The notes under the pieces are model-generated. The model searched no databases. It was not told the origin of the DNA and worked only from the letters and a program-made list of their open reading frames with translations. Source: Arcobacter sp. FWKO B (GTDB lineage Bacteria; Campylobacterota; Campylobacteria; Campylobacterales; Arcobacteraceae). From it: DNA of 64,000 bases. This document shows, in pieces, positions 43,800 through 55,461 of this stretch (the stretch's first letter is position 1; each line of letters starts with the position of its first letter). Where the stretch lies: assembly GCF_014844135.1 (NCBI RefSeq), contig NZ_CP041403.1:1612001-1676000 (forward strand), in the 5' to 3' direction. The translations under genes and the position numbers were made by a program.

Positions 43800-44477
43800 T
43801 ACCCTCAATGAAAATTTTACAACGACAAAGCTAAAGTTTATGTTGCAGATTTTTCTTATATGAATAAAAGATTTAGAAAAGAGCTTGGATATGAAAAAGA
43901 TAGTTTTAGAACAAATCTTGAACGAGCTTTTAGAGAAAAAGAGAAATTTTTAAATGATGTCAAAAGCGGAATAGACTTTAAAAGACCTGACACGCTTGAT
44001 AACTTAGCAAAAGAATATTTTGAGTCTTGCAAAGCTACTGAAATTGAACAAGGACACAAAACAAAAGTATCATATTACAATAAACACTTTTCACCTAAAA
44101 TAGGTAATAAAAAATTTGACAATATACTACAAAGAGATATACAACCTATAATAGATGAATTTTACAAAACAAAAGTACCGTTTAAAAGCTCATACTATCA
44201 ACCAAAAACTTGCGAAAAACTAGTTGATGTTAGAAAAGCTTGGGATAGAATAAAAAAAGCAGCTGAACTTGAAAAGCACTTTACAATACATAACATAAGA
44301 CACTTACTTGGAAACATAGCAAGAAATAGAGCAAATCAACCACTTGATAGCATTGCAAAAATGCTAGGACATAGTACAACTGGAGCAACTGGTATTTATG
44401 CTGATTTAGCTAAGGAAAAAGCATTTGAGAGTTTAAATGAGACATGGAATATTCTTTTGAATAATAAAGTTAATTAA
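43800..44477 (+). pseudogene. tyrosine recombinase/integrase, degraded
   Basis: The open part (43860-44477, 205 residues) has an N-terminal core-binding-like region and a C-terminal catalytic piece with HNIRHLLGNIARNRA, the GHS of LGHSTTGATG and the nucleophile region GIYADLAKEKAF. Family members are usually near 380-400 residues. Two defects are visible. Upstream, the same frame continues through a TGA (KYPQ*KFYNDKAKVYVADFSY), and between about residues 115 and 125 the stretch holding the first catalytic arginine is lost. It is not an integron IntI. It probably brought the small island at 43.6-45.6 kb. Confidence 0.75.
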
Positions 44478-47000: not shown

Positions 47001-47189
47001 TGGTTTCTTATGGAACACCAGTCTATGACTGGTGAAGAAACTAAGACAAGCCCAGATGAATCTGGGGTTCCGATTGGAACGCCAGTGGGTGACTGGTGAA
47101 TTTTCAAAGACAAGCCCAGTCAGAGACTGGGGTTCCGACATATGGAACGCCAGATTGACTTAAAGAGAGTGCTTTGCACAAGATCTGGT
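47001..47189. repeat. palindrome cluster A; left copy of a 189-bp direct repeat
   Basis: It contains full elements at 47012-47071 and 47076-47136 and an extended half element at 47144-47189. Each full element opens with GGAACGCC and closes with GGGGTTCC. Arm 1 is CCAGTC..GACTGG (or CCAGT..ACTGG) and arm 2 is CCCAGTC..GACTGGG or CCCAGAT..ATCTGGG, with AAGACAAG before arm 2. The whole 189 bp recurs at 47754-47942 with about five differences. The half element is cut off 11 bp before the DUF2442 stop codon. Confidence 0.9.
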
Positions 47190-47200
47190 ACAAAAGTTTA

Positions 47201-47443
47201 CTATGCCACTTTTTTTATATCTAGTTCTAACATGCTTTCAATATTAAGGTGATAATCTAATTCTTCCCATTCAATACCAGTATTGTTGCATATAAATTTA
47301 TAATTTTTTAGTTGCTGTAAACTTGCATTGTGTAGTATTTTATACCAATTAATAGGTGTAGATATGACTCTACCGTCTTCTAATTTTACATGTAAGTATT
47401 CATCATCAAAATGAACTTCTTTACCCTTCACTAAACCATTCAT
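47201..47443 (-). CDS. DUF2442 protein
   Basis: The 80-residue protein matches DUF2442 (LVKGKEVHFDDEYLHVKLEDGRVISTPINWYKILHNAS...NYKFICNNTGIEWEELDYHLNIESML). DUF2442 genes regularly follow DUF4160 genes, as here, and the pair resembles a toxin-antitoxin module; its action is not proven. I choose the ATG at 47443, with AAAGGA upstream, which overlaps the DUF4160 gene by 23 bp. The pair lies between the two 189-bp repeats. Confidence 0.85.
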   Translation of the reverse strand: MNGLVKGKEVHFDDEYLHVKLEDGRVISTPINWYKILHNASLQQLKNYKFICNNTGIEWEELDYHLNIESMLELDIKKVA

Positions 47444-47654
47444 TCCAAATCCTTTCAAATTCTTTGGTATTTTCTTTTATAACTTCCAGTGCAAATTTTA
47501 AGTCTTTTGGTTTTAAATAATTTTGTACAACTTTAAAATCATCTAAATTTATTTTCGCAAAACCTTCACCATACGATACATGTATATGTTTTGGTTCATG
47601 CTCATTGGCATAAAAAAAGAACTTAAATCCATTTTTATTCAACAAAGTAGGCAC
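47421..47654 (-). CDS. DUF4160 protein
   Basis: The 77-residue protein shows the DUF4160 pattern: PTLLNKNGFKFFFYANEHEPKHIHVSYGEGFAKINLDDF, with the HxH pair, and an end ...ERIWNEWF. It starts with GTG at 47654 and has AAGG 7 bp upstream. Two broken copies of the same family occur at 49.6 and 51.3 kb. It is the first gene of the DUF4160/DUF2442 pair. Confidence 0.85.
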   Translation of the reverse strand: MPTLLNKNGFKFFFYANEHEPKHIHVSYGEGFAKINLDDFKVVQNYLKPKDLKFALEVIKENTKEFERIWNEWFSEG

Positions 47655-47679
47655 TACAAACCTTATCTAATTTTTTTGA

Positions 47680-47709
47680 ATTATATCATATTATATTTAG
47701 AAAAGTCAA
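47680..47709 (-). promoter_or_regulatory. promoter of the DUF4160/DUF2442 module
   Basis: TTGACT (47709-47704), 18-bp spacer, TATAAT (47685-47680) on the minus strand, 28 bp from the nearest palindrome. Confidence 0.75.
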
Positions 47710-47736
47710 TTTTGGATTTTTTATTATTGATTTTGT

Positions 47737-47980
47737 GGAACGCCAGATTTATCTGGTTTCTTATGGAACGCCAGTCTATGACTGGTGAAGAAACTAAGAC
47801 AAGCCCAGATGAATCTGGGGTTCCGATTGGAACGCCAGTCTATGACTGGTGAATTTTCAAAGACAAGCCCAGTCAGAGACTGGGGTTCCGACATATGGAA
47901 AGCCAGATTGACTTAAAGAGAGTGCTTTGCACAAGATCTGGTGGAAAGGCTAAGACAAGTCCAGATGAATCTGGGATTCC
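47737..47980. repeat. palindrome cluster B; right copy of the 189-bp direct repeat
   Basis: It holds a half element (47737-47757, CCAGATTTATCTGG), full elements at 47765-47824 and 47829-47889, and an extended full element at 47897-47980. The 189-bp repeat spans 47754-47942. In the extended element, arm 1 (CCAGAT..ATCTGG) encloses AGAGAGTGCTTTGCACAAG, which itself can fold as GTGC..GCAC. The rest of the gap to 48087 is AT-rich, with a weak stem-loop and a run of A at 48000-48035 that could end the leftward transcript. Confidence 0.9.
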
Positions 47981-48087
47981 AAAAGAAAAAAAGGCATAAA
48001 AAAACCACCAGTGGAAAATTACTGACAGTTATATGTATTTCATCATTAGAGAGATAAAATAAGTTATATTTAAGCCCATCAATTAGA

Positions 48088-48201
48088 TTAGAAGTGATTT
48101 GTTTTCTTTGTATCTGTAAACTTTTTTAATTTGTATGCGAAATAACACATAAACCCAACAGTCACTAGCAAAGTAGCATAAGCAATCATCGTATTCATCA
48201 T
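48088..48201 (-). CDS. 37-residue single-helix membrane protein (partner B, copy 1)
   Basis: The frame MMNTMIAYATLLVTVGFMCYFAYKL... (ATG 48201, stop 48088) has one membrane helix (about residues 5-22) and a basic tail with KKFTDTKKTNHF. The ATG overlaps the TGA of the upstream membrane gene (ATGA), which suggests coupled translation. The same two-gene arrangement occurs at 51.5-51.8 kb with a 26-residue partner. Function is unknown. Confidence 0.65.
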   Translation of the reverse strand: MMNTMIAYATLLVTVGFMCYFAYKLKKFTDTKKTNHF

Positions 48202-48424
48202 AAATCCTTTAGTCCCTCAATTTTATCTATAATATACCTTAATAATAATACTGAACTGTAAACACATATTACAACTAATACAAATGCAAATATAAGTAAC
48301 ATACCGTCAACTTTTGTATATACAGTAACTACCCATCCTGTTAATCCAAATATTAAACCTACAAAAATACCAAGAGCATACTTTGCCAAAGATATTTTTT
48401 TTTATCTACACCTAGCTTTCCCAT
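48198..48424 (-). pseudogene. two-helix small membrane protein (partner A, copy 1), frameshifted at a poly-A tract
   Basis: By comparison with the 75-residue copy at 51.6 kb, the gene should start at the ATG at 48424 (GKLGVDKKK) and continue as ISLAKYALGIFVGLIFGLTGWVV. A run of nine A (48394-48402 region, T on the plus strand) puts the two parts in different frames; ten A would join them. A shorter product could start at a TTG near 48389 (63 residues). This may be a true mutation, slippage-based phase variation or a sequencing error. Two membrane helices are predicted. Confidence 0.6.
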
Positions 48425-48456
48425 ATTTGTATCAGCCTATATATTTTTGATTTTTT

Positions 48457-48484
48457 ATTATAACATAAAATGTGTTAAAGTCAA
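48457..48484 (-). promoter_or_regulatory. promoter of membrane pair copy 1
   Basis: TTGACT (48484-48479), 16-bp spacer, TATAAT (48462-48457). The 65 bp at 48436-48500 are identical to 51849-51913 before copy 2. Confidence 0.8.
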
Positions 48485-48516
48485 TAAAATATGGTGATTG
48501 TTGGTTAGTGTTTTAC

Positions 48517-48634
48517 GGAACGCCAGTGGGTGACTGGTGAAAATGGAACGCCAGTCTGTGACTGGTGAATCTTCCAAGACAAGCCCAGTCAGAGACTGGG
48601 GTTCCAAAACACGGAACGCCAGATTTATCTGGTG
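48517..48634. repeat. palindrome cluster C
   Basis: It contains a half element (48517-48539), a full element (48545-48605) and a half element (48613-48634, CCAGATTTATCTGG) that ends one base before the stop codon of the RAYT gene. The half-plus-full unit 48517-48605 recurs at 51034-51122 with two differences in 89 bp. Confidence 0.9.
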
Positions 48635-48635
48635 C

Positions 48636-49169
48636 TTATGTTCTATCATATCTACAATAAACTCTTTCATCACTATCTGCCAATTTTGCTTTTATGGGAT
48701 TATAAAATATATATTTCAATACTTTTTCATATATTATTTCATCTCTTACTACTTTGTCGTAATATTCTCTTTGCCAAAAAGCACCTTGTCGGTTGAGAAG
48801 TTTATTGATTTTATTTGCACTTGTTCCTTTGATATATTTTATTATATTACTTAGATTATCTTTTGGTAGTATCATTATATGAATATGGTTTGGCATAATA
48901 CAAAAGGCTTCTAATTGGTATAATATATTGTCGTTTTGTAGTAAAATATCTTTCATATTTTCTAGAACTTTACCATAAAAATAGGCACCATTATTTGAAG
49001 AATCTAGATATTTGTCTATATCATACTGCTTTTGTTTATTATCTAGTATAGAGGAACTTATTTTCTTGACATACTCATCTACACTATCATAAGTCCTAAA
49101 AGTGATAAATATATAATGATTCTCTATTGATATGTGAGGTAGTTTTCTTTTGTAATAATCATATTGCAT
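48636..49169 (-). CDS. REP-associated tyrosine transposase (RAYT, IS200-like Y1 family)
   Basis: RAYTs are single-copy Y1 HUH nucleases that bind and cut REP hairpins as single strands. The 177-residue protein has the HUH-type motif MPNHIHIMI (H95, H97), a beta-strand start HYIFITFRTYDS and the diagnostic RAYT segment FWQREYYDKVVRDE, followed by VLKYIFYNPIKAKLA. The exact catalytic tyrosine is not assigned; it is likely in or just before the WQREYYD helix. The gene is surrounded by palindromes of one family, with a half element touching its stop codon. AAGGATACT precedes the ATG, but no strong promoter like those of the other modules is seen. Confidence 0.88.
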   Translation of the reverse strand: MQYDYYKRKLPHISIENHYIFITFRTYDSVDEYVKKISSSILDNKQKQYDIDKYLDSSNNGAYFYGKVLENMKDILLQNDNILYQLEAFCIMPNHIHIMILPKDNLSNIIKYIKGTSANKINKLLNRQGAFWQREYYDKVVRDEIIYEKVLKYIFYNPIKAKLADSDERVYCRYDRT

Positions 49170-49247
49170 AAGTATCCTTATAATAATATATATAATTATT
49201 ACATACTTTAATTGAATATATGATTAAGGATGATAATTCTTACACAA

Positions 49248-49327
49248 TGTCAGATTGACTCAAAGAGAGTGCTTTGCACAAGATCAGGTGGAAAGGCTAA
49301 GACAAGCCCAGATAAATCTGGGGTTCC
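49248..49327. repeat. extended palindrome D, degraded left end
   Basis: It has the extended arm 1 (CAGAT..ATCAG around AGAGAGTGCTTTGCACAAG), the spacer GGCTAAGACAAG and arm 2 CCCAGATAAATCTGGG, ending GGGGTTCC. The opening GGAACGCC is replaced by AATGTC. Confidence 0.85.
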
Positions 49328-49350
49328 ATAAAGGAAAAAATTGATAAAAA

Positions 49351-49593
49351 TCAAGATGCTTTTAGCTCATGACTCATTTTATAAGATATAATCCCATTTA
49401 AGGAAATATCCTCATCAATATCTTCAAAATGAACTCCTATACCATCACCTATAATTCTGTAGTTAGTAAGCTGTTCTTTTTTTGCATTTTGGATTTTTTT
49501 TGTATAGTTATATGGTATAGTCAAAATATCATTGCTTTTGAGATAAATATAAATCTTATCACCAAAATCAACTCTTGTAATTGAAGTATTCAT
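49351..49593 (-). CDS. DUF2442-like protein, second copy
   Basis: The 80-residue product shows the DUF2442 layout (ITRVDFGDKIYIYLKSNDILTIPYNYTKKIQNAKKEQLTNYRIIGDGIGVHFEDIDEDISLNGI). The ATG at 49593 overlaps the tail of a truncated DUF4160 frame. With its partner cut off, it is probably an orphan. Confidence 0.78.
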   Translation of the reverse strand: MNTSITRVDFGDKIYIYLKSNDILTIPYNYTKKIQNAKKEQLTNYRIIGDGIGVHFEDIDEDISLNGIISYKMSHELKAS

Positions 49594-49690
49594 TCCACGC
49601 TCCTATTAGTTTTTGTTGATGCTCTTTTATTATAGACAATACTTTTTTCTCATCACTTTTTGAGAGTTTATATCTATTGGTAACTTTAAA
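49568..49690 (-). pseudogene. DUF4160 C-terminal fragment fused to the end of a ParE gene
   Basis: The reading frame KFETFKVTNRYKLSKSDEKKVLSIIKEHQQKLIGAWNEYFNYKS is the C-terminal half of a DUF4160 protein. Upstream it runs straight into the 3' end of the ParE relic, so the N-terminal half and its promoter have been deleted. Confidence 0.75.
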
Positions 49691-49694
49691 TGTT

Positions 49695-49991
49695 TCAAAT
49701 TTTCTTCCTCTTCTTCCAATAATTAGGTTTTCTATTAAGTTGCATAACTGCCAAGATAATGAGTTGATTATTATGTATAAAATAAATTATGCCAAATGGA
49801 AATCGATTTGTTAAACATCTTCTAATATCCCCATCTAGTATTTGCCAAGCTTTTGGGAAGCTTATAATCCTTTGAATAGTTTTATATACTTCATCCGCAA
49901 AATCAAGTCCAAGCCCGCTTTGACACTCTTCATAGTAGTCCACCTAGAAATTAAGCTCTAGTTCTGCCTCAGGATGAAAAAAATATTTCAT
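49695..49991 (-). pseudogene. ParE/RelE-type toxin with an in-frame stop
   Basis: Reading from the ATG at 49991 gives MKYFFHPEAELELNF, then TAG, then VDYYEECQSGLGLDFADEVYKTIQRI and an end with LNRKPNYWKK. This aligns without gaps to ParE-family toxins (usual AELEFNEAIDYYEE), so the TAG at codon 16 interrupts an otherwise intact gene. A shorter product from GTG 49943 would lack the first strand and part of helix 1. The antitoxin gene upstream is intact, which fits a toxin silenced by mutation. Confidence 0.8.
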
Positions 49992-49994
49992 ATC

Positions 49995-50225
49995 TTATTT
50001 TAATCTATTTGATATTTTAGTAAACACTTCATCACCAGTAACTAATGTAATATTAGTTGCTAATACATCTTCTTTTCTTTGGTTTACTTCTTTAATCCAA
50101 AGATCATTTATTGAACTCTCTACAGGATTAAGGCTACTCAGTATTTTATCCACAATCTTCGTTTTCAACTCAAGAGGTAAGAAATCAATTTGTTCAAATA
50201 GTTTTTGTTGATTTACTGCAACCAT
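49995..50225 (-). CDS. addiction-module antitoxin (unstable antitoxin family)
   Basis: The 76-residue protein has the pattern of the addiction-module component family often paired with ParE: FEQIDFLPLELKTKIVDKILSSLNPVESSINDLWIKEVNQRKEDV...TGDEVFTKI. The toxin ATG lies 3 bp after this stop codon. The toxin is broken, so only the antitoxin half remains functional. Confidence 0.82.
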   Translation of the reverse strand: MVAVNQQKLFEQIDFLPLELKTKIVDKILSSLNPVESSINDLWIKEVNQRKEDVLATNITLVTGDEVFTKISNRLK

Positions 50226-50248
50226 AATTTACCTTTCATTTTTAATAA

Positions 50249-50277
50249 ATTATATCACACATAATAGTTAAAGTCAA
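50249..50277 (-). promoter_or_regulatory. promoter of the antitoxin/ParE module
   Basis: TTGACT (50277-50272), 17-bp spacer, TATAAT (50254-50249). The stretch from GTTAAAGTC to the palindrome at 50306 is the same as before membrane pair 2. Confidence 0.8.
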
Positions 50278-50305
50278 TAAAATATGGTGATTGGTGAATG
50301 TTTTT

Positions 50306-50389
50306 GGAACGCCAGTCTTTCTCACAGAGAGTGCTTTGCACAAGACTGGTGACTCTTTGAAGACAAGCCCAGTCGGAGACTGGGGTTCC
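50306..50389. repeat. extended palindrome E
   Basis: GGAACGCC, extended arm 1 CCAGTC..GACTGG with the inner GTGCTTTGCAC, spacer TTTGAAGACAAG, arm 2 CCCAGTCGGAGACTGGG, GTTCC. Its left border meets the promoter leader. Its right border cuts a terminator-like sequence (ACAGCTAGTATTA) that is whole at 51.47 kb. Confidence 0.9.
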
Positions 50390-50450
50390 GCCACCATTAT
50401 AATACTAGCTGTTGTATGTATTCTACCTTTGAAGATATAAACTAATGATA

Positions 50451-50699
50451 TTACCTGTAGTGATTTGTTATTGCTACTATTTCTATAGTATTCGTATCGG
50501 TATATATAAAAATTGCTCTATATTTTTTGTCTAGTCTAAAAGAGTAAATTAACCTATCTTTTGGTTCTAAAAGTTCAGTATTAAGAGATGGATAGAATGG
50601 ATCATTTTCAAAAAGTTTTTTTGCTTTTTCATATTTTTTCACAATATTATGAGTTTTGATATACTCATATATATCATCTCTTAAGTCTTTAATTTTCAT
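50451..50699 (-). CDS. RelE/ParE-family toxin
   Basis: The 82-residue protein has the RelE-fold pattern, with an N-terminal helix pair and the late strands LIYSFRLDKKYRAIFIYTDTNTIEIVAITNHY, where the basic residues of the toxic site usually lie. I choose the ATG at 50699: it overlaps the antitoxin stop codon in ATGAAAATTAA. An upstream ATG at 50726 gives nine more residues but lies inside the antitoxin gene. Confidence 0.78.
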   Translation of the reverse strand: MKIKDLRDDIYEYIKTHNIVKKYEKAKKLFENDPFYPSLNTELLEPKDRLIYSFRLDKKYRAIFIYTDTNTIEIVAITNHYR

Positions 50700-50928
50700 T
50701 GTAAATAGAACTTTTTTTAAGTCCATTTTCCAAATCAGCTAAAAAATCTTCACTATAACCAGCTTCTTTGAAGTCTAACATTATATCTTCAATATCATCT
50801 TTTTTAAACTTTTTAAAATACAACTCTTTTTCTATAATTTTATTTTTGATAATTTCAATCTCTTTTAAATTCATTTGAGATATAAGATGCAAAATATTAC
50901 GCATACTAACATCAACGGCTAATTGCAT
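50689..50928 (-). CDS. antitoxin partner of the RelE-type toxin
   Basis: The 79-residue protein (MQLAVDVSMRNILHLI...KKSSIYNEN) is largely helical and charged. Family not recognised with certainty. The ATG at 50928 has GGGGGCAAGGAT just before it. It overlaps the toxin by 11 bp; the 54-kb pair uses the same junction (ATGAAAATTAA). Confidence 0.72.
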   Translation of the reverse strand: MQLAVDVSMRNILHLISQMNLKEIEIIKNKIIEKELYFKKFKKDDIEDIMLDFKEAGYSEDFLADLENGLKKSSIYNEN

Positions 50929-50956
50929 ATCCTTGCCCCCTCTATTTATTTTTTTT

Positions 50957-50985
50957 ATTATATCAAACTCTTGGGTGGAAGTCAA
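50957..50985 (-). promoter_or_regulatory. promoter of the RelE module
   Basis: TTGACT (50985-50980), 17-bp spacer, TATAAT (50962-50957), 29 bp before the antitoxin ATG. Confidence 0.78.
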
Positions 50986-50992
50986 TAAAATA

Positions 50993-51030
50993 AAATCGTG
51001 AGTCGTAAGTCGATATTCGTGAGTAGTGGA
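50993..51030. repeat. heptamer repeat, single arm, inside the palindrome island
   Basis: CGTGAGT, CGTAAGT, CGATATT, CGTGAGT, AGTGGAT: seven-base steps between a module promoter and a palindrome. Two different repeat systems thus meet here. Confidence 0.7.
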
Positions 51031-51033
51031 TGG

Positions 51034-51122
51034 GGAACGCCAGTGGGTGACTGGTGAAAATGGAACGCCAGTCTGTGACTGGTGAATCTTCAAAGACAAG
51101 CCCAGTCGGAGACTGGGGTTCC
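51034..51122. repeat. palindrome cluster F
   Basis: A half element (51034-51056, CCAGTGGGTGACTGG) is followed by a full element (51062-51122). It is nearly identical to 48517-48605. The full element is followed by a copy of the porin terminator, just as cluster G is. Confidence 0.9.
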
Positions 51123-51124
51123 TT

Positions 51125-51222
51125 TGGGGATAAAAAAACCGTCGATTGGGAATGCAACCGATGGTTTGTAGGAAAGTTTACGAAATTCCTATTAGAATTT
51201 GAAAGCTATTTCTAGTCTACTT
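51125..51222 (-). pseudogene. relic of a duplicated porin 3' end with its terminator
   Basis: On the minus strand, SRLEIAFKF and a stop (about 51222-51193) match the end of the intact porin (TRLEVAFKF). A stem-loop related to the porin terminator follows at 51134-51168 (ACCGTCGATTGG..CCGATGGTTT), with A-run. The rest of this porin copy is gone, replaced by a DUF4160 fragment. Unlike the intact locus, this copy lacks a 30-bp hairpin insertion after GGTTTG. Confidence 0.75.
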
Positions 51223-51360
51223 TTTTAGTTTATGTTGATGCTCTTTTATTATATAAAATATCTTTTTCTCATCAATTTTTGAGAGTTTATATCTATTAGT
51301 CACTTTAAATGTTTCAAGCTCAACCATCATATAACCATCTACTCTAAGTATTGTTGGCAA
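51217..51360 (-). pseudogene. DUF4160 gene with internal deletion
   Basis: From a TTG at 51360 the frame reads PTILRVDGY, the usual DUF4160 start, then jumps to METFKVTNRYKLS-type sequence (VELETFKVTNRYKLSKIDEKK) and ends at HKLKK and TAG. The central part with the HxH strand is missing. The second half matches the fragment at 49.6 kb. The end joins the porin relic. Confidence 0.75.
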
Positions 51361-51455
51361 ATCAAAACTCCATAAACTTTAGTAGAAATGTTATATGATA
51401 TTTATATTGAAAGTAATAAAATTAATTGTGATTGGTTATTGGTAAGAAAATGTTG

Positions 51456-51481
51456 TAAAAAAACGCTAGTGTAATACTAGC
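51456..51481 (-). terminator. intrinsic terminator of membrane pair copy 2
   Basis: On the minus strand GCTAGT, loop ATTAC, ACTAGC and then GTTTTTTT. A second small hairpin (CCATCT..AGATGG, 51496-51513) lies between the gene and this terminator. The stretch 51361-51455 holds no gene. Confidence 0.85.
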
Positions 51482-51532
51482 TGTTGTATGCATTCCATCT
51501 CTGGATAGATGGAACGGTTAAGAAAGTATTAC

Positions 51533-51613
51533 TTAGATTTTAGAAGCTATATACGCCTCATAACTAAAAAATATAACTATAGCAACTATTAAAAAACCAA
51601 TAAGTATTTCCAT
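51533..51613 (-). CDS. 26-residue single-helix membrane protein (partner B, copy 2)
   Basis: MEILIGFLIVAIVIFFSYEA... ends at IASKI. It is one membrane helix with a short tail. The ATG overlaps the TAA of the upstream gene (TAATG), so translation is probably coupled. It corresponds to the 37-residue partner at 48.1 kb. Function is unknown. Confidence 0.62.
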   Translation of the reverse strand: MEILIGFLIVAIVIFFSYEAYIASKI

Positions 51614-51840
51614 TATAATTCCTCTAAAGAATTTATTTTTTCTAAAATTTTTTTATTTAAAAAATGTATTGATAAAACGAGTAATATCACGGCTAAAAAT
51701 GATAGAATAAATTTGAAAGAAGATATATTATCATAATTTGATGATAGCCAACCAACTAAACCAATAAGTGTTACAACGAATATACCTAACCAAACTTTTA
51801 AATAGTTTATCTTTTCCTTTATTAAATCAATTTTTGCCAT
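51613..51840 (-). CDS. 75-residue two-helix membrane protein (partner A, copy 2)
   Basis: The protein has a short amphipathic start (AKIDLIKEKINYLKVW), helix 1 (about 16-33, LGIFVVTLIGLVGWL), helix 2 (about 43-60) and an end with KINSLEEL. I know similar small hypothetical proteins in many bacteria, often in mobile or integron settings; none has a known role. Start ATG 51840 with TATAGGT upstream. It pairs with the 26-residue gene behind it. Confidence 0.75.
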   Translation of the reverse strand: MAKIDLIKEKINYLKVWLGIFVVTLIGLVGWLSSNYDNISSFKFILSFLAVILLVLSIHFLNKKILEKINSLEEL

Positions 51841-51869
51841 ACAACATACCTATATATTTTTGATTTTTT

Positions 51870-51897
51870 ATTATAACATAAAATGTGTTAAAGTCAA
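51870..51897 (-). promoter_or_regulatory. promoter of membrane pair copy 2
   Basis: TTGACT (51897-51892), 16-bp spacer, TATAAT (51875-51870); identical to the copy 1 promoter. Confidence 0.8.
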
Positions 51898-51925
51898 TAA
51901 AATATGGTGATTGGTGAATGTTTTT

Positions 51926-52131
51926 GGAACGCCAGATTTATCTGGTGAAAAAAGGCTAAGACAAGCCCAGATGAATCTGGGGTTCCGAAAGAATGGAACG
52001 CCAGTCTCTGACTGGTGATTTCTTGATTCTTTCCAAGACAAGCCCAGTCGGAGACTGGGGTTCCGACATGTGGAACGCCAGATTTATCTGGTGAAAAAGT
52101 TAAGACAAGCCCAGTCGGAGACTGGGGTTCC
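51926..52131. repeat. palindrome cluster G
   Basis: It has three full elements: 51926-51986 (both arms GAT/ATC type), 51995-52064 (both arms GTC/GAC, longer spacer) and 52072-52131 (arm 1 GAT/ATC, arm 2 GTC/GAC). They fill the space between the promoter of membrane pair 2 and the porin terminator. Confidence 0.92.
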
Positions 52132-52140
52132 TTTTGGGAT

Positions 52141-52178
52141 AAAAAAAACCGCCGATTGGGGAATCCAACCGACGGTTT
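52141..52178 (-). terminator. porin terminator
   Basis: On the minus strand AAACCGTCGGTTGG, a short loop, CCAATCGGCGGTTT and a T-run form a 14-bp stem. A single arm 2 hairpin is inserted just before it (52180-52209). Confidence 0.9.
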
Positions 52179-52179
52179 G

Positions 52180-52209
52180 ATAGACTTACCCAGTCAGAGA
52201 CTGGGTTTG
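52180..52209. mobile_element. single-arm hairpin insertion behind the porin gene
   Basis: The 30 bp include TAGACTTA and CCCAGTCAGAGACTGGG (52189-52205), that is, arm 2 with its AGAC flank. The related sequence at 51160-51175 lacks exactly these 30 bp, and TTTG stands on both sides of the insert. It therefore looks like a recent insertion of half an element, with a 4-bp repeat. Confidence 0.7.
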
Positions 52210-52232
52210 TAGGAAAGTTTTAACAAATCTTA

Positions 52233-53441
52233 TTAGAATTTGAAAGCAACTTCAAGTCTTGTATTGTTTGATTTGATTGGAGCAGCTTTTGAACCATCAA
52301 CTAACTCATCTTTTTGAGTACCATATCTTAAGTAAGCAGATAGGTTGCTAGCAAATTTATATGTTGCTTGTGCATAAGTTTCTTTATTTTTACCTTTTGC
52401 AGCTACATCAGCTTTTGCAGATACATGAGTAAGTGCAAGATTTAAGTTATCCATTACATTTACATCAGCTTTTAACATATATGCTTTGATATCTTTTAAA
52501 TTAGCATTTGTATGAACTCTCCATCCTTTGAACGCAGCAGATGCATCAGAATCAAACGCTACGATAGCACCATCTTTACCACCTTTTGCATATCCAGCAG
52601 CAAGATTTACTATATCAACTGAACCACTTAATACAGCTTTAGTAAGTTTTTGTTTTTTTAAGATAGCATCATCATTAGCATCTAAAGTTGAGTGTCCAAC
52701 ATTAAGCTTTGCAAGATCCATTAAATTGATATCTGCAGATACAGTTAACGCATCAGCACCTTTTTTTAGTGTTCCAGCATTGCTATCTTTTGCAAAATCA
52801 GCATACCAAATTTGTGCAGTTGCAACATCCATAATTGGAATAATAGCTGCTGCTACAGTGATGTTTTGTCCACCACCTAATAATGCATTAACATCGTTTA
52901 CTGCGTTTGTATCAGTATTAGCTACTGTAGCAACATTATGAGCTGTAAAATGCGCAGCAGCAAAAGTAGCAAAACCAGCGTTATATAATGCTAATGCACC
53001 AGTTCCACTATTTGTTTTGTTGATATGAGAAGTTCCCTCAGTCCATGGAGTATTGATAGCTTGTTTACCAGCGATAACTGTTAAGTTTTCAACACCAGTA
53101 TATACAAAGTTTGCTTCCATTAAATCTGTTGATGGATTAGTCTCATTTGTTTTTGTAGAATCTTTACCATTTAAACCTTGACCCCAAACAACACCTTGTA
53201 ATTTTACATTTACATCTTCAGTAGCTGGAATAGTTAAAGTCATAGCAGCTTTGTAGTTATGAGTTTCTTTACTAGCTGTATTTGATGGCTTAGAGTAATC
53301 TTGGTGATCCATTCTATATGTTACATAACCTGTAGCATCAACACCTTTGATAGCTTCTTCAAGTGGCTTAGCACTTGCAACTGAACTTAAACCTGCTACA
53401 GCAACTGCAGCAGCTAAACTAATTTTCGCGAATTTTTTCAT
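52233..53441 (-). CDS. major outer membrane porin (Campylobacter MOMP type)
   Basis: The 402-residue protein forms a beta-barrel channel. The start at 53441 gives a 24-residue signal peptide (MKKFAKISL...SSVASA) cleaved before KPLEEAIKGVDATGYVTYRMD, the usual MOMP N-terminus. It ends in TRLEVAFKF, the phenylalanine that marks outer membrane barrels. AGGAGAACAA precedes the ATG. Codon use looks like that of a highly expressed gene. Its position inside the toxin-antitoxin and palindrome island is unexpected, and a relic of a second copy lies at 51.2 kb. Confidence 0.9.
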   Translation of the reverse strand: MKKFAKISLAAAVAVAGLSSVASAKPLEEAIKGVDATGYVTYRMDHQDYSKPSNTASKETHNYKAAMTLTIPATEDVNVKLQGVVWGQGLNGKDSTKTNETNPSTDLMEANFVYTGVENLTVIAGKQAINTPWTEGTSHINKTNSGTGALALYNAGFATFAAAHFTAHNVATVANTDTNAVNDVNALLGGGQNITVAAAIIPIMDVATAQIWYADFAKDSNAGTLKKGADALTVSADINLMDLAKLNVGHSTLDANDDAILKKQKLTKAVLSGSVDIVNLAAGYAKGGKDGAIVAFDSDASAAFKGWRVHTNANLKDIKAYMLKADVNVMDNLNLALTHVSAKADVAAKGKNKETYAQATYKFASNLSAYLRYGTQKDELVDGSKAAPIKSNNTRLEVAFKF

Positions 53442-53718
53442 TTGTTCTCCTAAATTTCGAAATTTATCAAGTATGACAGGTCGCGCGAGTGAAAACCCCA
53501 CCACACTGTTAGTGTCATTTTATACTATAATTCTTTAAACAAATCTTAAATGTTGTCCTATTTTTGCCTATTTTTACATAAATATCACTTTTTTTATTAC
53601 ATTTGGGTAATTTTATTGAAAAGTAAAATCTAAAAGGTGAAACTTATAAGCTGAAAGAGTTGAATATTAGGGATTTAGTTTTTAGGTGAGAAAAAGAAGT
53701 TGGGGGGGATAGTCTTAT
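53442..53718. other. porin upstream region
   Basis: It contains the 5' leader of the porin gene, with a likely -10 box (TATAGT/TATAAA near 53518-53530, minus strand), an AT-rich stretch and a short heptamer-like piece (AAAAGTA, AAATCTA, AAAGGTG near 53620-53640). No gene is seen. Confidence 0.55.
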
Positions 53719-53903
53719 GGAACGCTAGTGGGTGAGTGGCTTCTTCTGGAACGCCAGTCTTTGACTGGTGATTTTTTTGAAGACAAGCCCAGATAAATCT
53801 GGGGTTCCAAACGGAACGCCATTGGGGTGAGTGGTTTCTTTTGGAACGCCAGTCTATGACTGGTGAAGAAATTAAGATAAGCCCAGTCGGAGACTGGGGT
53901 TCC
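53719..53903. repeat. palindrome cluster H
   Basis: Half elements with changed arms are at 53719-53740 and 53813-53836 (GGTGAGTGG). Full elements are at 53748-53808 and 53843-53903. The last ends 3 bp before the toxin stop codon. Confidence 0.88.
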
Positions 53904-53906
53904 TTG

Positions 53907-54185
53907 TTAAGCTTTCCAGAGGTTTTTTTTGAAAATACCTAGTATTAATATTTCGTTTTCTTTTATTTTGTATGGTATTACATATTTTTTATATATCATA
54001 TTTCTTAAGTTTTTGTATTTTGCTTTTTTGGATTTGCGGTACATGTAGGGGAAGTCTTTTAGTATTTGCATACTACTCATTAGCTCACTTTTAAAATTAT
54101 CTGCATTTGAAAAAGAATCTTTAGCTATATACATATAGATTTCAAAAAATTCTTTTTCAAATCTGTTTGAAAAATTAATTTTCAT
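53907..54185 (-). CDS. RelE/ParE-family toxin
   Basis: The 92-residue protein has the ParE-like layout: FSNRFEKEFFEIYMYIAKDSFSNADNF (helix 1 region), FPYMYRKSKKAKYKNLRNMIYKKYVIPYKIKENEILILGIF. The ATG at 54185 overlaps the antitoxin end by 11 bp. It is likely an mRNA interferase or gyrase poison; which one cannot be told. Confidence 0.82.
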   Translation of the reverse strand: MKINFSNRFEKEFFEIYMYIAKDSFSNADNFKSELMSSMQILKDFPYMYRKSKKAKYKNLRNMIYKKYVIPYKIKENEILILGIFKKNLWKA

Positions 54186-54399
54186 TTTTATACTTTTCGA
54201 TTTTTTGTTCTATGTTATCCCACATTGTATCAAAAGGAACTGCTGGAAGTGAGCCATCTTCTATTTCTTGGATTCTTTTTTCTAGCTCTAGTGTGATTGC
54301 ATCTTTTTGGATTTTGATTTTGTTTTTTGGCATCACTTCAAGTACATTCATAAATTTAGGTAAAAAATCATCTTCAATTTGAAGAGTAATTGTTTGCAT
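54175..54399 (-). CDS. antitoxin partner of the toxin
   Basis: The 74-residue protein (MQTITLQIEDDFLPKFMNVLEVMPKNKIKI...) has the start and length of small ParD-like antitoxins: a beta strand for DNA binding, then helices. It ends in EKYKNEN with the same ATGAAAATTAA junction as the pair at 50.7 kb. AAAGGATAAAC precedes the ATG. Confidence 0.8.
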   Translation of the reverse strand: MQTITLQIEDDFLPKFMNVLEVMPKNKIKIQKDAITLELEKRIQEIEDGSLPAVPFDTMWDNIEQKIEKYKNEN

Positions 54400-54426
54400 T
54401 GTTTATCCTTTGATTGTATGGGATGA

Positions 54427-54455
54427 ATTTTATCATAAGAGGGGTTTAATGTCAA
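54427..54455 (-). promoter_or_regulatory. promoter of the toxin-antitoxin pair
   Basis: TTGACA (54455-54450), 17-bp spacer, TAAAAT (54432-54427). The leader is nearly the same as that before mntA (55231-55285). Confidence 0.8.
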
Positions 54456-54476
54456 TAAGCTAATGGTTGTAACTGT

Positions 54477-54537
54477 GGAACGCCAGTCTGTGACTGGTGA
54501 ATTCTTTGAAGACAAGCCCAGATGAATCTGGGGTTCC
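54477..54537. repeat. palindrome I, single full element
   Basis: GGAACGCC, arm 1 CCAGTCTGTGACTGG, spacer TTTGAAGACAAG, arm 2 CCCAGATGAATCTGGG, GTTCC. It ends one base before the hepT stop codon (54539-54541). Confidence 0.92.
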
Positions 54538-54538
54538 G

Positions 54539-54891
54539 TTAATTAGCGATTAGTTTTTTTATATTCATTTCAAGTATATCTATTTGATGCCTTAGTACAT
54601 CTTCTATTATAGCTAAACTTACGCCATCATAATCATGAGCTATAAAAGTTCTTATACTATAAAAACCTTTTACTTGTGATTCATCAAATATTTCTAATAT
54701 TTTGAATCGCTCTTTTTTAGTTTGTCAAATTGTTCAGCTATTGCTACAAGATTCATAAGCAATGCAGCTCTTGCTTCTGCTCTATCTGCAAGTGCATGTG
54801 TTATAGTACCATGTCTTGAAATAACTGTCTTAATATCTTCTATTTTTTCAAGTATGCTGTGTACCCTTGATATGTCTTTTTGGCTATACAT
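54539..54891 (-). pseudogene. HepT-type toxin, split by a -1 shift at A AAA AAG
   Basis: Frame 1 (ATG 54891) encodes MYSQKDISRV...IAEQFDKLKK and stops after 65 residues (SDSKY). The -1 frame goes on as ERFKILEIFDESQVKGFYSIRTFIAHDYDGVSLAIIEDVL to 54539. That second part holds the whole HepT active motif RTFIAHDY (RX4HXY), in which the tyrosine is the residue modified by MntA. The switch point is CTA AAA AAG, a classic slippery site, with a stem-loop 3 bases later. So it is either a frameshift mutation, a sequencing error or programmed frameshifting. The ATG overlaps the mntA end by 8 bp. Confidence 0.78.
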
Positions 54892-55201
54892 AGATTGTTT
54901 TGTCCACTATAAACTTTTTGCCTACTGGACTAAGTCCTGATTTATCTGTAAAATCAACTTTTACACCAAATTCTTTTTGTAATTGATTTTTGATTTGATT
55001 TAACTTTTCTATTGCCCCAAAGCCTCCTCCATTATTTTGTACAAATTTTGGTGTGGCTTCTACTAATACATCTATATCACTATCTTGTGTTTGTTCATCC
55101 CTTGAATAAGAACCAAAAAGACCATATATATAAAAACCGTCTTTTTCATAGATAGACTTTAATTCTTTTAATTTCTCAATAACTTGAGTTTTATTTAACA
55201 T
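54884..55201 (-). CDS. MntA-type nucleotidyltransferase antitoxin
   Basis: MntA proteins AMPylate and so disarm HepT toxins. The 105-residue protein has the minimal nucleotidyltransferase motif GLFGSYSRDEQTQDSDIDVLVE (GSX10DXD) and a later aspartate in VKVDFTDKSGLS. It sits before hepT as in known modules. If HepT is dead, this antitoxin gene is an orphan. Confidence 0.88.
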   Translation of the reverse strand: MLNKTQVIEKLKELKSIYEKDGFYIYGLFGSYSRDEQTQDSDIDVLVEATPKFVQNNGGGFGAIEKLNQIKNQLQKEFGVKVDFTDKSGLSPVGKKFIVDKTIYV

Positions 55202-55230
55202 TTTAGCTTCTTTTTAAAATTGTTTTTTAA

Positions 55231-55259
55231 ATTTTATCATAAGAGGGGTTTAATGTCAA
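55231..55259 (-). promoter_or_regulatory. promoter of the MntA/HepT module
   Basis: TTGACA (55259-55254), 17-bp spacer, TAAAAT (55236-55231). Confidence 0.8.
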
Positions 55260-55281
55260 TAAGATAATGATTGTAACTGTT

Positions 55282-55461
55282 GGAACGCCAGTGGTGAGTG
55301 GTTTCTTTTGGAACGCCAGTCTTTCTCACAGAGAGTGCTTTGCACAAGACTGGTGAAGAAATTAAGACAAGCCCAGATAAATCTGGGGTTCCAAATAGGG
55401 AACGCCAGTGGGTGACTGGTGAAAAAGAAACTAAGACAAGCCCAGATAAATCTGGGGTTCC
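55282..55461. repeat. palindrome cluster J
   Basis: A changed half element (55282-55303), an extended full element (55310-55392, inner GTGCTTTGCAC) and a full element (55399-55461). It is the right edge of the island, 7 bp before the stop codon of the response regulator. Confidence 0.9.

Follow-up and report, generated by a model that had tools for sequence, protein, structure and literature searches.

A single-copy RAYT gene and dispersed GGAN-tagged hairpins as a probable REPtron in Arcobacter sp. FWKO B

RAYT or TnpAREP-type genes are known from many phyla and GTAG repeats from all proteobacterial divisions including epsilon (PMC6006769, PMC3733652), so the original prediction for this locus starts from a premise that holds only in part, namely that most descriptions of RAYTs come from gammaproteobacteria. 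Tags that we found in the open-access literature searched are GTAG, degenerating to GYAG, GTRG and GTGG; subclass 2.6 departs from the typical structure, and class 3 has CnGA. The E. coli TnpAREP tolerates no change to its GTAG tag (PMC8266576), which is touched by the W94-Q95...R104 region of the protein, with Q95 and H101 in the contact region (PMC6006769, PMC8266576).

We analyzed a window of 64,000 nucleotides from Arcobacter sp. FWKO B (the whole stretch of DNA under study, whose positions are used below) in which a RAYT-like gene lies among hairpin repeats. Because the gene has intact HUH, W and Tyr motifs and a TnpAREP-like predicted fold, and because hairpins flank it on both sides and the same architecture recurs at its homologues, we consider the locus very probably a REPtron, in which a domesticated HUH/Y1 transposase (RAYT/TnpAREP), present once on the chromosome, is accompanied by dispersed REP/REPIN hairpins. 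The features are as follows.

48636..49169, minus strand: predicted RAYT (TnpAREP-like HUH/Y1 protein), 177 aa, with HUH N94-H-I-H97, W132-Q133 and Tyr Y153 in YIFYNP
48613..48634, plus strand: solo REP of arm-1 type, GGAA followed by a CGCCAGA-TTTA-TCTGGTG hairpin, 1 nt off the RAYT stop; folds at -4.6 kcal/mol, z -3.0
48545..48605, plus strand: REPIN/BIME, with arm 1 at 48545-48565 (+), a linker, and arm 2 at 48585-48605 (-)
48517..48539, plus strand: extra arm-1 type REP with a TGGGTGA centre
about 49246..49327, plus strand: 'extended' element upstream of the RAYT, a degenerate arm 1 with a double-hairpin insertion, then arm 2 at 49308-49327
47011..55461, plus strand: REP cluster of 36 REPs, composites all in one orientation, between small toxin-antitoxin-type genes

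The 177-residue Y1 protein originally predicted here is encoded by an intact open reading frame with an ATG start and a TAA stop, and includes MPNHIHIMI and WQREYYDKVVRDE. Profile searches matched it to Pfam Y1_Tnp (E=2.1e-12) and to NCBIfam REP_Tyr_transpos (NF047646; E=2.8e-22, 79.2 bits, 0.8 bits short of the cut-off of 80), and placed it below the cut-off of the IS200 model NF033573 (38.8 bits, cut-off 55). It is the single Y1_Tnp match in the 2,243,170-bp (2.24-Mb) genome, chromosomal and in one copy, and plasmid matches to the protein are distant only, at <33% identity. All motifs of the Y1 core, HUH (NHIH, 94-97), W (W132) and Tyr (Y..NP, Y153), are present with a HUH-Tyr spacing of about 57 residues, and N94, H95, H97, D138, R142 and Y153 are invariant in a 24-sequence alignment. 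The catalytic tyrosine, assigned by comparison with the published RAYT motif table, is predicted to be Y153 in YIFYNP, and not to lie in the WQREYYD stretch quoted originally; WQREYYDKVVRDE (WQ..D..R) aligns with W94-Q95...R104 of E. coli TnpAREP, the tag-contact region. An AlphaFold model of the protein (mean pLDDT 92) had as its top PDB match 4er8, which is E. coli TnpAREP with bound REP hairpin (E 3.4e-7, TM about 0.5), and 4er8 was marginal (E 0.06) in a sequence-only comparison. Sequence, predicted fold and genomic setting together support a RAYT-like identity for this open reading frame.

The hairpin GGAACGCCAGATTTATCTGGTG at 48613-48634 stands one base from the RAYT stop codon (48636-48638). 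The adjacency noted originally thus holds, but this is not a half element: the hairpin is a complete REP by itself. Each arm of the family comprises a GGAA tag, a stem of about 7 bp and a loop of 3-4 nt. In the REPIN at 48545..48605, arm 2 on the minus strand is GGAACCCCAG..CTGG with the conserved 3' flank GCTTGTCTT; read on that strand, arm 2 has the form GGAACCCCAG..CTGGGCTTGTCTT and so repeats the arm-1 design, GGAAC[G/A]CCAG..CTGGTG. Because arm 2 is arm 1 in reverse complement, the two-armed element is, judged by its sequence, a REPIN/BIME: two inverted REPs joined by a short linker, with tags facing outward. The 61-nt composite folds at -19.8 kcal/mol, a value equalled by 0 of 200 shuffles. 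Composites are mostly 57-64 nt long, or 81-89 nt if extended or with an extra arm, and across 49 arm-2 copies the 3' flank GCTTGTCTT is near-invariant (46-49 of 49 per base), with conservation stopping beyond it. The extended element predicted upstream of the RAYT is also there, with arm 1 degenerate and its GGAA tag lost and arm 2 intact, although its extended arm is better described as a REP plus a separate 23-24 nt insertion, to which we return below.

Statements about the whole genome are based on searches with sequence patterns and on stretches sampled from it. Genome-wide there were 109 matches to GGAACNCCAG-N(2-30)-CTGG and 0 to a reversed-pattern control. Within the 8.5 kb round the RAYT (47011-55461) there are 36 of these copies vs 0.4 expected, a clustering whose P value is nominal since REPs multiply together, and about 73 lie beyond the cluster, dispersed over the genome. 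Among 399 Campylobacterales genomes the repeat is enriched in this one only, the other 398 having 0-9 matches, similar to reversed controls. Of 61 dispersed elements, 18 lie in convergent, 39 in co-directional and 4 in divergent gene gaps, and so mainly 3' of genes. The position of dnaA and the GC skew place the origin near 1.216 Mb, and relative to it 44 of the 61 agree with the direction of replication (Fisher p 0.0009). We do not claim a replication-strand bias of REPIN orientation, since orientation also tracks the direction of the flanking gene (in 30 of the 39 co-directional gaps), the subset of two-armed elements gives 7/12, and a single expansion may account for the uniform direction within the cluster.

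The genes of the cluster, almost all on the minus strand, include DUF4160/DhiT-like with DUF2442, Unstab_antitox with ParE-like, YoeB/HigB-like and MntA-like nucleotidyltransferase genes. Segments of 194 nt (at 47001/47754, 96%) and 93 nt (at 49606/51225, 91%) are duplicated within it, and REPs may act there as seeds of recombination and cassette-like duplication. About 3 kb from the cluster, at 43860-44477 (+), is a shortened-looking tyrosine recombinase (Phage_integrase C-terminal domain, 205 aa).

Searching the 399 Campylobacterales genomes yielded 20 RAYT homologues with 41-51% identity over nearly their full length. All 20 are outside the family of Arcobacter sp. FWKO B, and three further genomes of its genus lack a close homologue. 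GGAN-tagged hairpins surround 13 of the 20, so that close Campylobacterales homologues in other genera are indeed flanked by similar elements. These shared surroundings, together with the sequence and predicted fold of the protein, support the original view of the RAYT as the best candidate nuclease for the repeat family. Counting perfect hairpins with a 7-bp stem and 4-nt loop in 323 kb round the 20 homologues, we found 69 (138 flanks) and GGA on 49 flanks vs 1.5 expected from base composition, an enrichment whose P value is nominal and overstates independence, since the hairpins of any one genome are mutual copies. Of 90 homologue-associated hairpins, 83 have a TTTA or TTCA loop. Stems are common within a genome and different between genomes: GTACGAC (G318, G330), GTGCGAC (G317), GCAAGGT (G126), and GTGAGGT and ACGAGGT (G202), with dispersed copies numbering 66 in G317, 46 in G202, 26 in G126, 20 in G330 and 9 in G318, against 0 or 1 for the reversed control. 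GGA-tagged hairpins were absent from 280 kb sampled from four congeneric genomes without a close homologue. A further congener with no close RAYT homologue detected, G239, has five REP-like GGAA hairpins in five places, perhaps orphan REPs or remnants after RAYT loss. No recognisable REP was found near the remaining 7 of 20 homologues, one of which is on a 3.9-kb contig. A Mantel test of RAYT distance against REP stem distance showed weak co-variation, with r 0.22 (p 0.057) when the query was left out and r 0.29 (p 0.015) when it was included.

Together with the query, which branches at the base, the homologues form one branch of 21 Campylobacterales proteins (96/86). The combination of NHIH, WQ (WA in most members of the clade) and YIFYNP with the HUH-Tyr spacing of about 57 residues is an exact match to no single published subclass. 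Placement in published groups rests on such motifs, the tree having few references and one E. coli sequence on a long branch, and we therefore leave the protein unassigned to any of these subclasses. The canonical GT[AG]G is absent 5' of the hairpin, its place being taken by GGAA in Arcobacter sp. FWKO B and by GGAN across the clade. Around homologues with 30-35% identity, from Acidobacteria and other phyla, the hairpins carry GTAG tags, e.g. GTAGCGCCGGCGTCCCGCCGGC, and a few distant RAYTs sit among GTAC, GTAT, GGAC or GGAG hairpins of the same build. Thus the tag appears, from these sequences, to vary as G[T/G]AN on the wider branch and as GGAN in Campylobacterales. With GTAG hairpins at distant RAYTs and GGAN in Campylobacterales, the comparison therefore supports a RAYT/REP lineage whose tag would have shifted from GTAG to GGAN. 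In the protein, most members of the clade have A, S, V or E at the equivalent of E. coli Q95, with Q retained in the query, and the equivalent of H101 is mostly K or R. In the open-access literature searched, we found neither the GGAN tag nor a Campylobacterota RAYT lineage with a non-GTAG tag. TnpAREP recognition is understood around GTAG, and a GGAN clade spanning several genera offers a natural experiment on a shift in tag recognition, one that concerns the Q95- and H101-equivalent positions in a phylum outside the studied models.

The repeats might instead be miniature elements of another transposase (IS200/IS605 or an unrelated IS) with the RAYT merely among them, and the G239 hairpins without a detected RAYT and the seven homologues without a nearby REP would fit such an origin. 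We regard it as unlikely, given that a Y1_Tnp search of the genome returned the RAYT alone, that in other genera 13 of the 20 homologues have hairpins of this build beside them, and that none of the 398 other Campylobacterales genomes is enriched for the repeat. This last result, at least for relatives without a RAYT, also weighs against reading the hairpins as functional host sequences, such as terminators or mRNA stabilisers, whose abundance is independent of the RAYT. Although the elements fold well and lie mainly downstream of genes, their clustering round the RAYT and their two arms with outward tags leave this reading with very little probability. A search of Rfam for an RNA family matching the element gave sub-threshold miRNA noise only. 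A secondary host use of the hairpins would be compatible with the REPtron as well.

Small genes mostly on one strand with same-orientation hairpin repeats between them also recall an integron-like cassette array, in which small toxin-antitoxin genes would be mobilised by IntI at attC-like sites. However, the genome contains no integron integrase above cut-off (best 49.5 bits vs 265), the same repeats are dispersed genome-wide beside ordinary genes, and the hairpins have the build of REPs (tag, 7-bp stem, 3-4 nt loop), making this the most improbable of the three.

For a REPtron, a mode of action can be sketched by analogy with E. coli TnpAREP, and the action of the RAYT on the repeats is inferred in this way. 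The RAYT would recognise the hairpin in its folded form on one strand, with the 5' GGAN tag and the loop as contacts, and would cut single-stranded DNA with Y153 through a 5'-phosphotyrosine. REPINs may be moved or copied as single-stranded DNA when their hairpins are exposed in that form. As E. coli TnpAREP cleaves at CT, a candidate region for the cut is CTTGTCTT, which is conserved and adjoins arm 2 on its 3' side.

The extended arms carry a further element, present in the cluster as follows.

49259..49282, plus strand: 24-nt double-hairpin insertion CTCAAAGAGAGTGCTTTGCACAAG inside arm 1
50306..50349, plus strand: arm-1 REP with double-hairpin insertion (50321-50344), three-way-junction fold, z -3.9
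55310..55353, plus strand: arm-1 REP with double-hairpin insertion (55325-55348), three-way-junction fold

Degenerate copies of the insertion lie at 47165-47183 and 47918-47936. The predicted fold of extended arms is a three-way junction (z between -2.9 and -3.9), and we considered whether they are a RAYT-specific three-way-junction REP. The insertion core CTCA[C/A]AGAGAGTGC-n-GCACAAG has 14 copies in the Arcobacter sp. FWKO B genome and recurs in 33 other Campylobacterales genomes, 34 of 399 in all (reversed control 0). None of these 33 contains a close homologue of the Arcobacter RAYT, and we rejected the RAYT-specific reading on this ground. In 43 contexts the insertion has a length of 23 or 24 nt and mostly stands between TTT (T in 41, 37 and 41 of 43) and A (38/43), and these flanking bases were outside the search pattern for the core. 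Unexpanded arms, CCAGATTT^ATCTGG, provide the empty site in REPs, and in G307 a tandem copy next to a filled one provides another. A precorrin-methyltransferase-like gene (read from its sequence) in the sister genomes G351 and G369 has the arrangement CCAAACTTT-[24 nt]-AAAGAAGAA, adding LTESAEHK in frame, and its orthologues in the close relatives G375, G363 and G291 are without these residues, their sites being empty. In the IS transposase-like genes of G273, G285 and G018, removing 23 nt rejoins two halves of one reading frame. A 30-nt probe matched, among 72,556 plasmids, those of Arcobacter, Aliarcobacter, Campylobacter and Sulfurovum only, and among phages those of Campylobacter plus three weak Streptococcus phage matches. 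Other loci with the insertion are L251, L256, L258, L263, L264 and L284-L288.

From these contexts the insertion looks like a separate mini-element picked up by REPs. It is probably a tiny mobile element of Campylobacterota in its own right, a double hairpin of 23-24 nt that enters at TTT^A without visible target duplication, can stay in frame at 24 nt (LTESAEHK), breaks IS transposase genes at 23 nt, and has been carried along in copies by REPs of the Arcobacter sp. FWKO B genome. The open-access literature searched did not contain the insertion sequence. In the IS256-like gene of G057 (L253, about 430-480) there appears to be another palindromic insertion of different sequence, TGGGTCCCATAAAATTATATTTTATGGG, which lies upstream of the 23-nt one, and there may be further short insertions of hairpin type. 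Small hairpin insertions, some of them in frame in genes, are also known as the double-hairpin elements of fungal mitochondria and the Rickettsia palindromic elements. The present insertion differs from both in being only 23-24 nt long, in its occurrence in Campylobacterota and in its position at TTT^A; if confirmed, it would rank with the smallest mobile DNAs that have been proposed for bacteria.

Among described systems, the IS200/IS605 TnpA proteins (IS608, ISDra2) share with the Arcobacter RAYT the HUH/Y1 fold and, as predicted for the RAYT, hairpin substrates with a 5' tetranucleotide guide, but are marked by multiple near-identical copies and by the Tyr motif Y[IV]ENQ, in contrast to YIFYNP in a one-copy protein that scores below the IS200 cut-off. 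RAYT subclass 2.1 (Bertels group 1, prevalent in epsilonproteobacteria) belongs to the same superfamily and is found in the same bacterial order (250-265 aa matches), but its members are about 240-260 aa long, have NHYH and YIE.NP motifs and are reported without REPs (PMC6006769); in our tree, proteins of this type form a separate branch (100/100) from the Arcobacter RAYT clade. The closest likeness is to the GT[AG]G RAYT/TnpAREP proteins (subclasses 2.2, 2.4, 2.5, 2.7 and 2.8, PMC6006769; 4er8), with which the Arcobacter system shares a HUH, W and Tyr (Y..NP) core in one copy, the fold match to 4er8, and flanking REPs and REPINs that are also dispersed in the genome. It differs from these in its GGAN tag and in loops of TTTA/TTCA or T-N-T.
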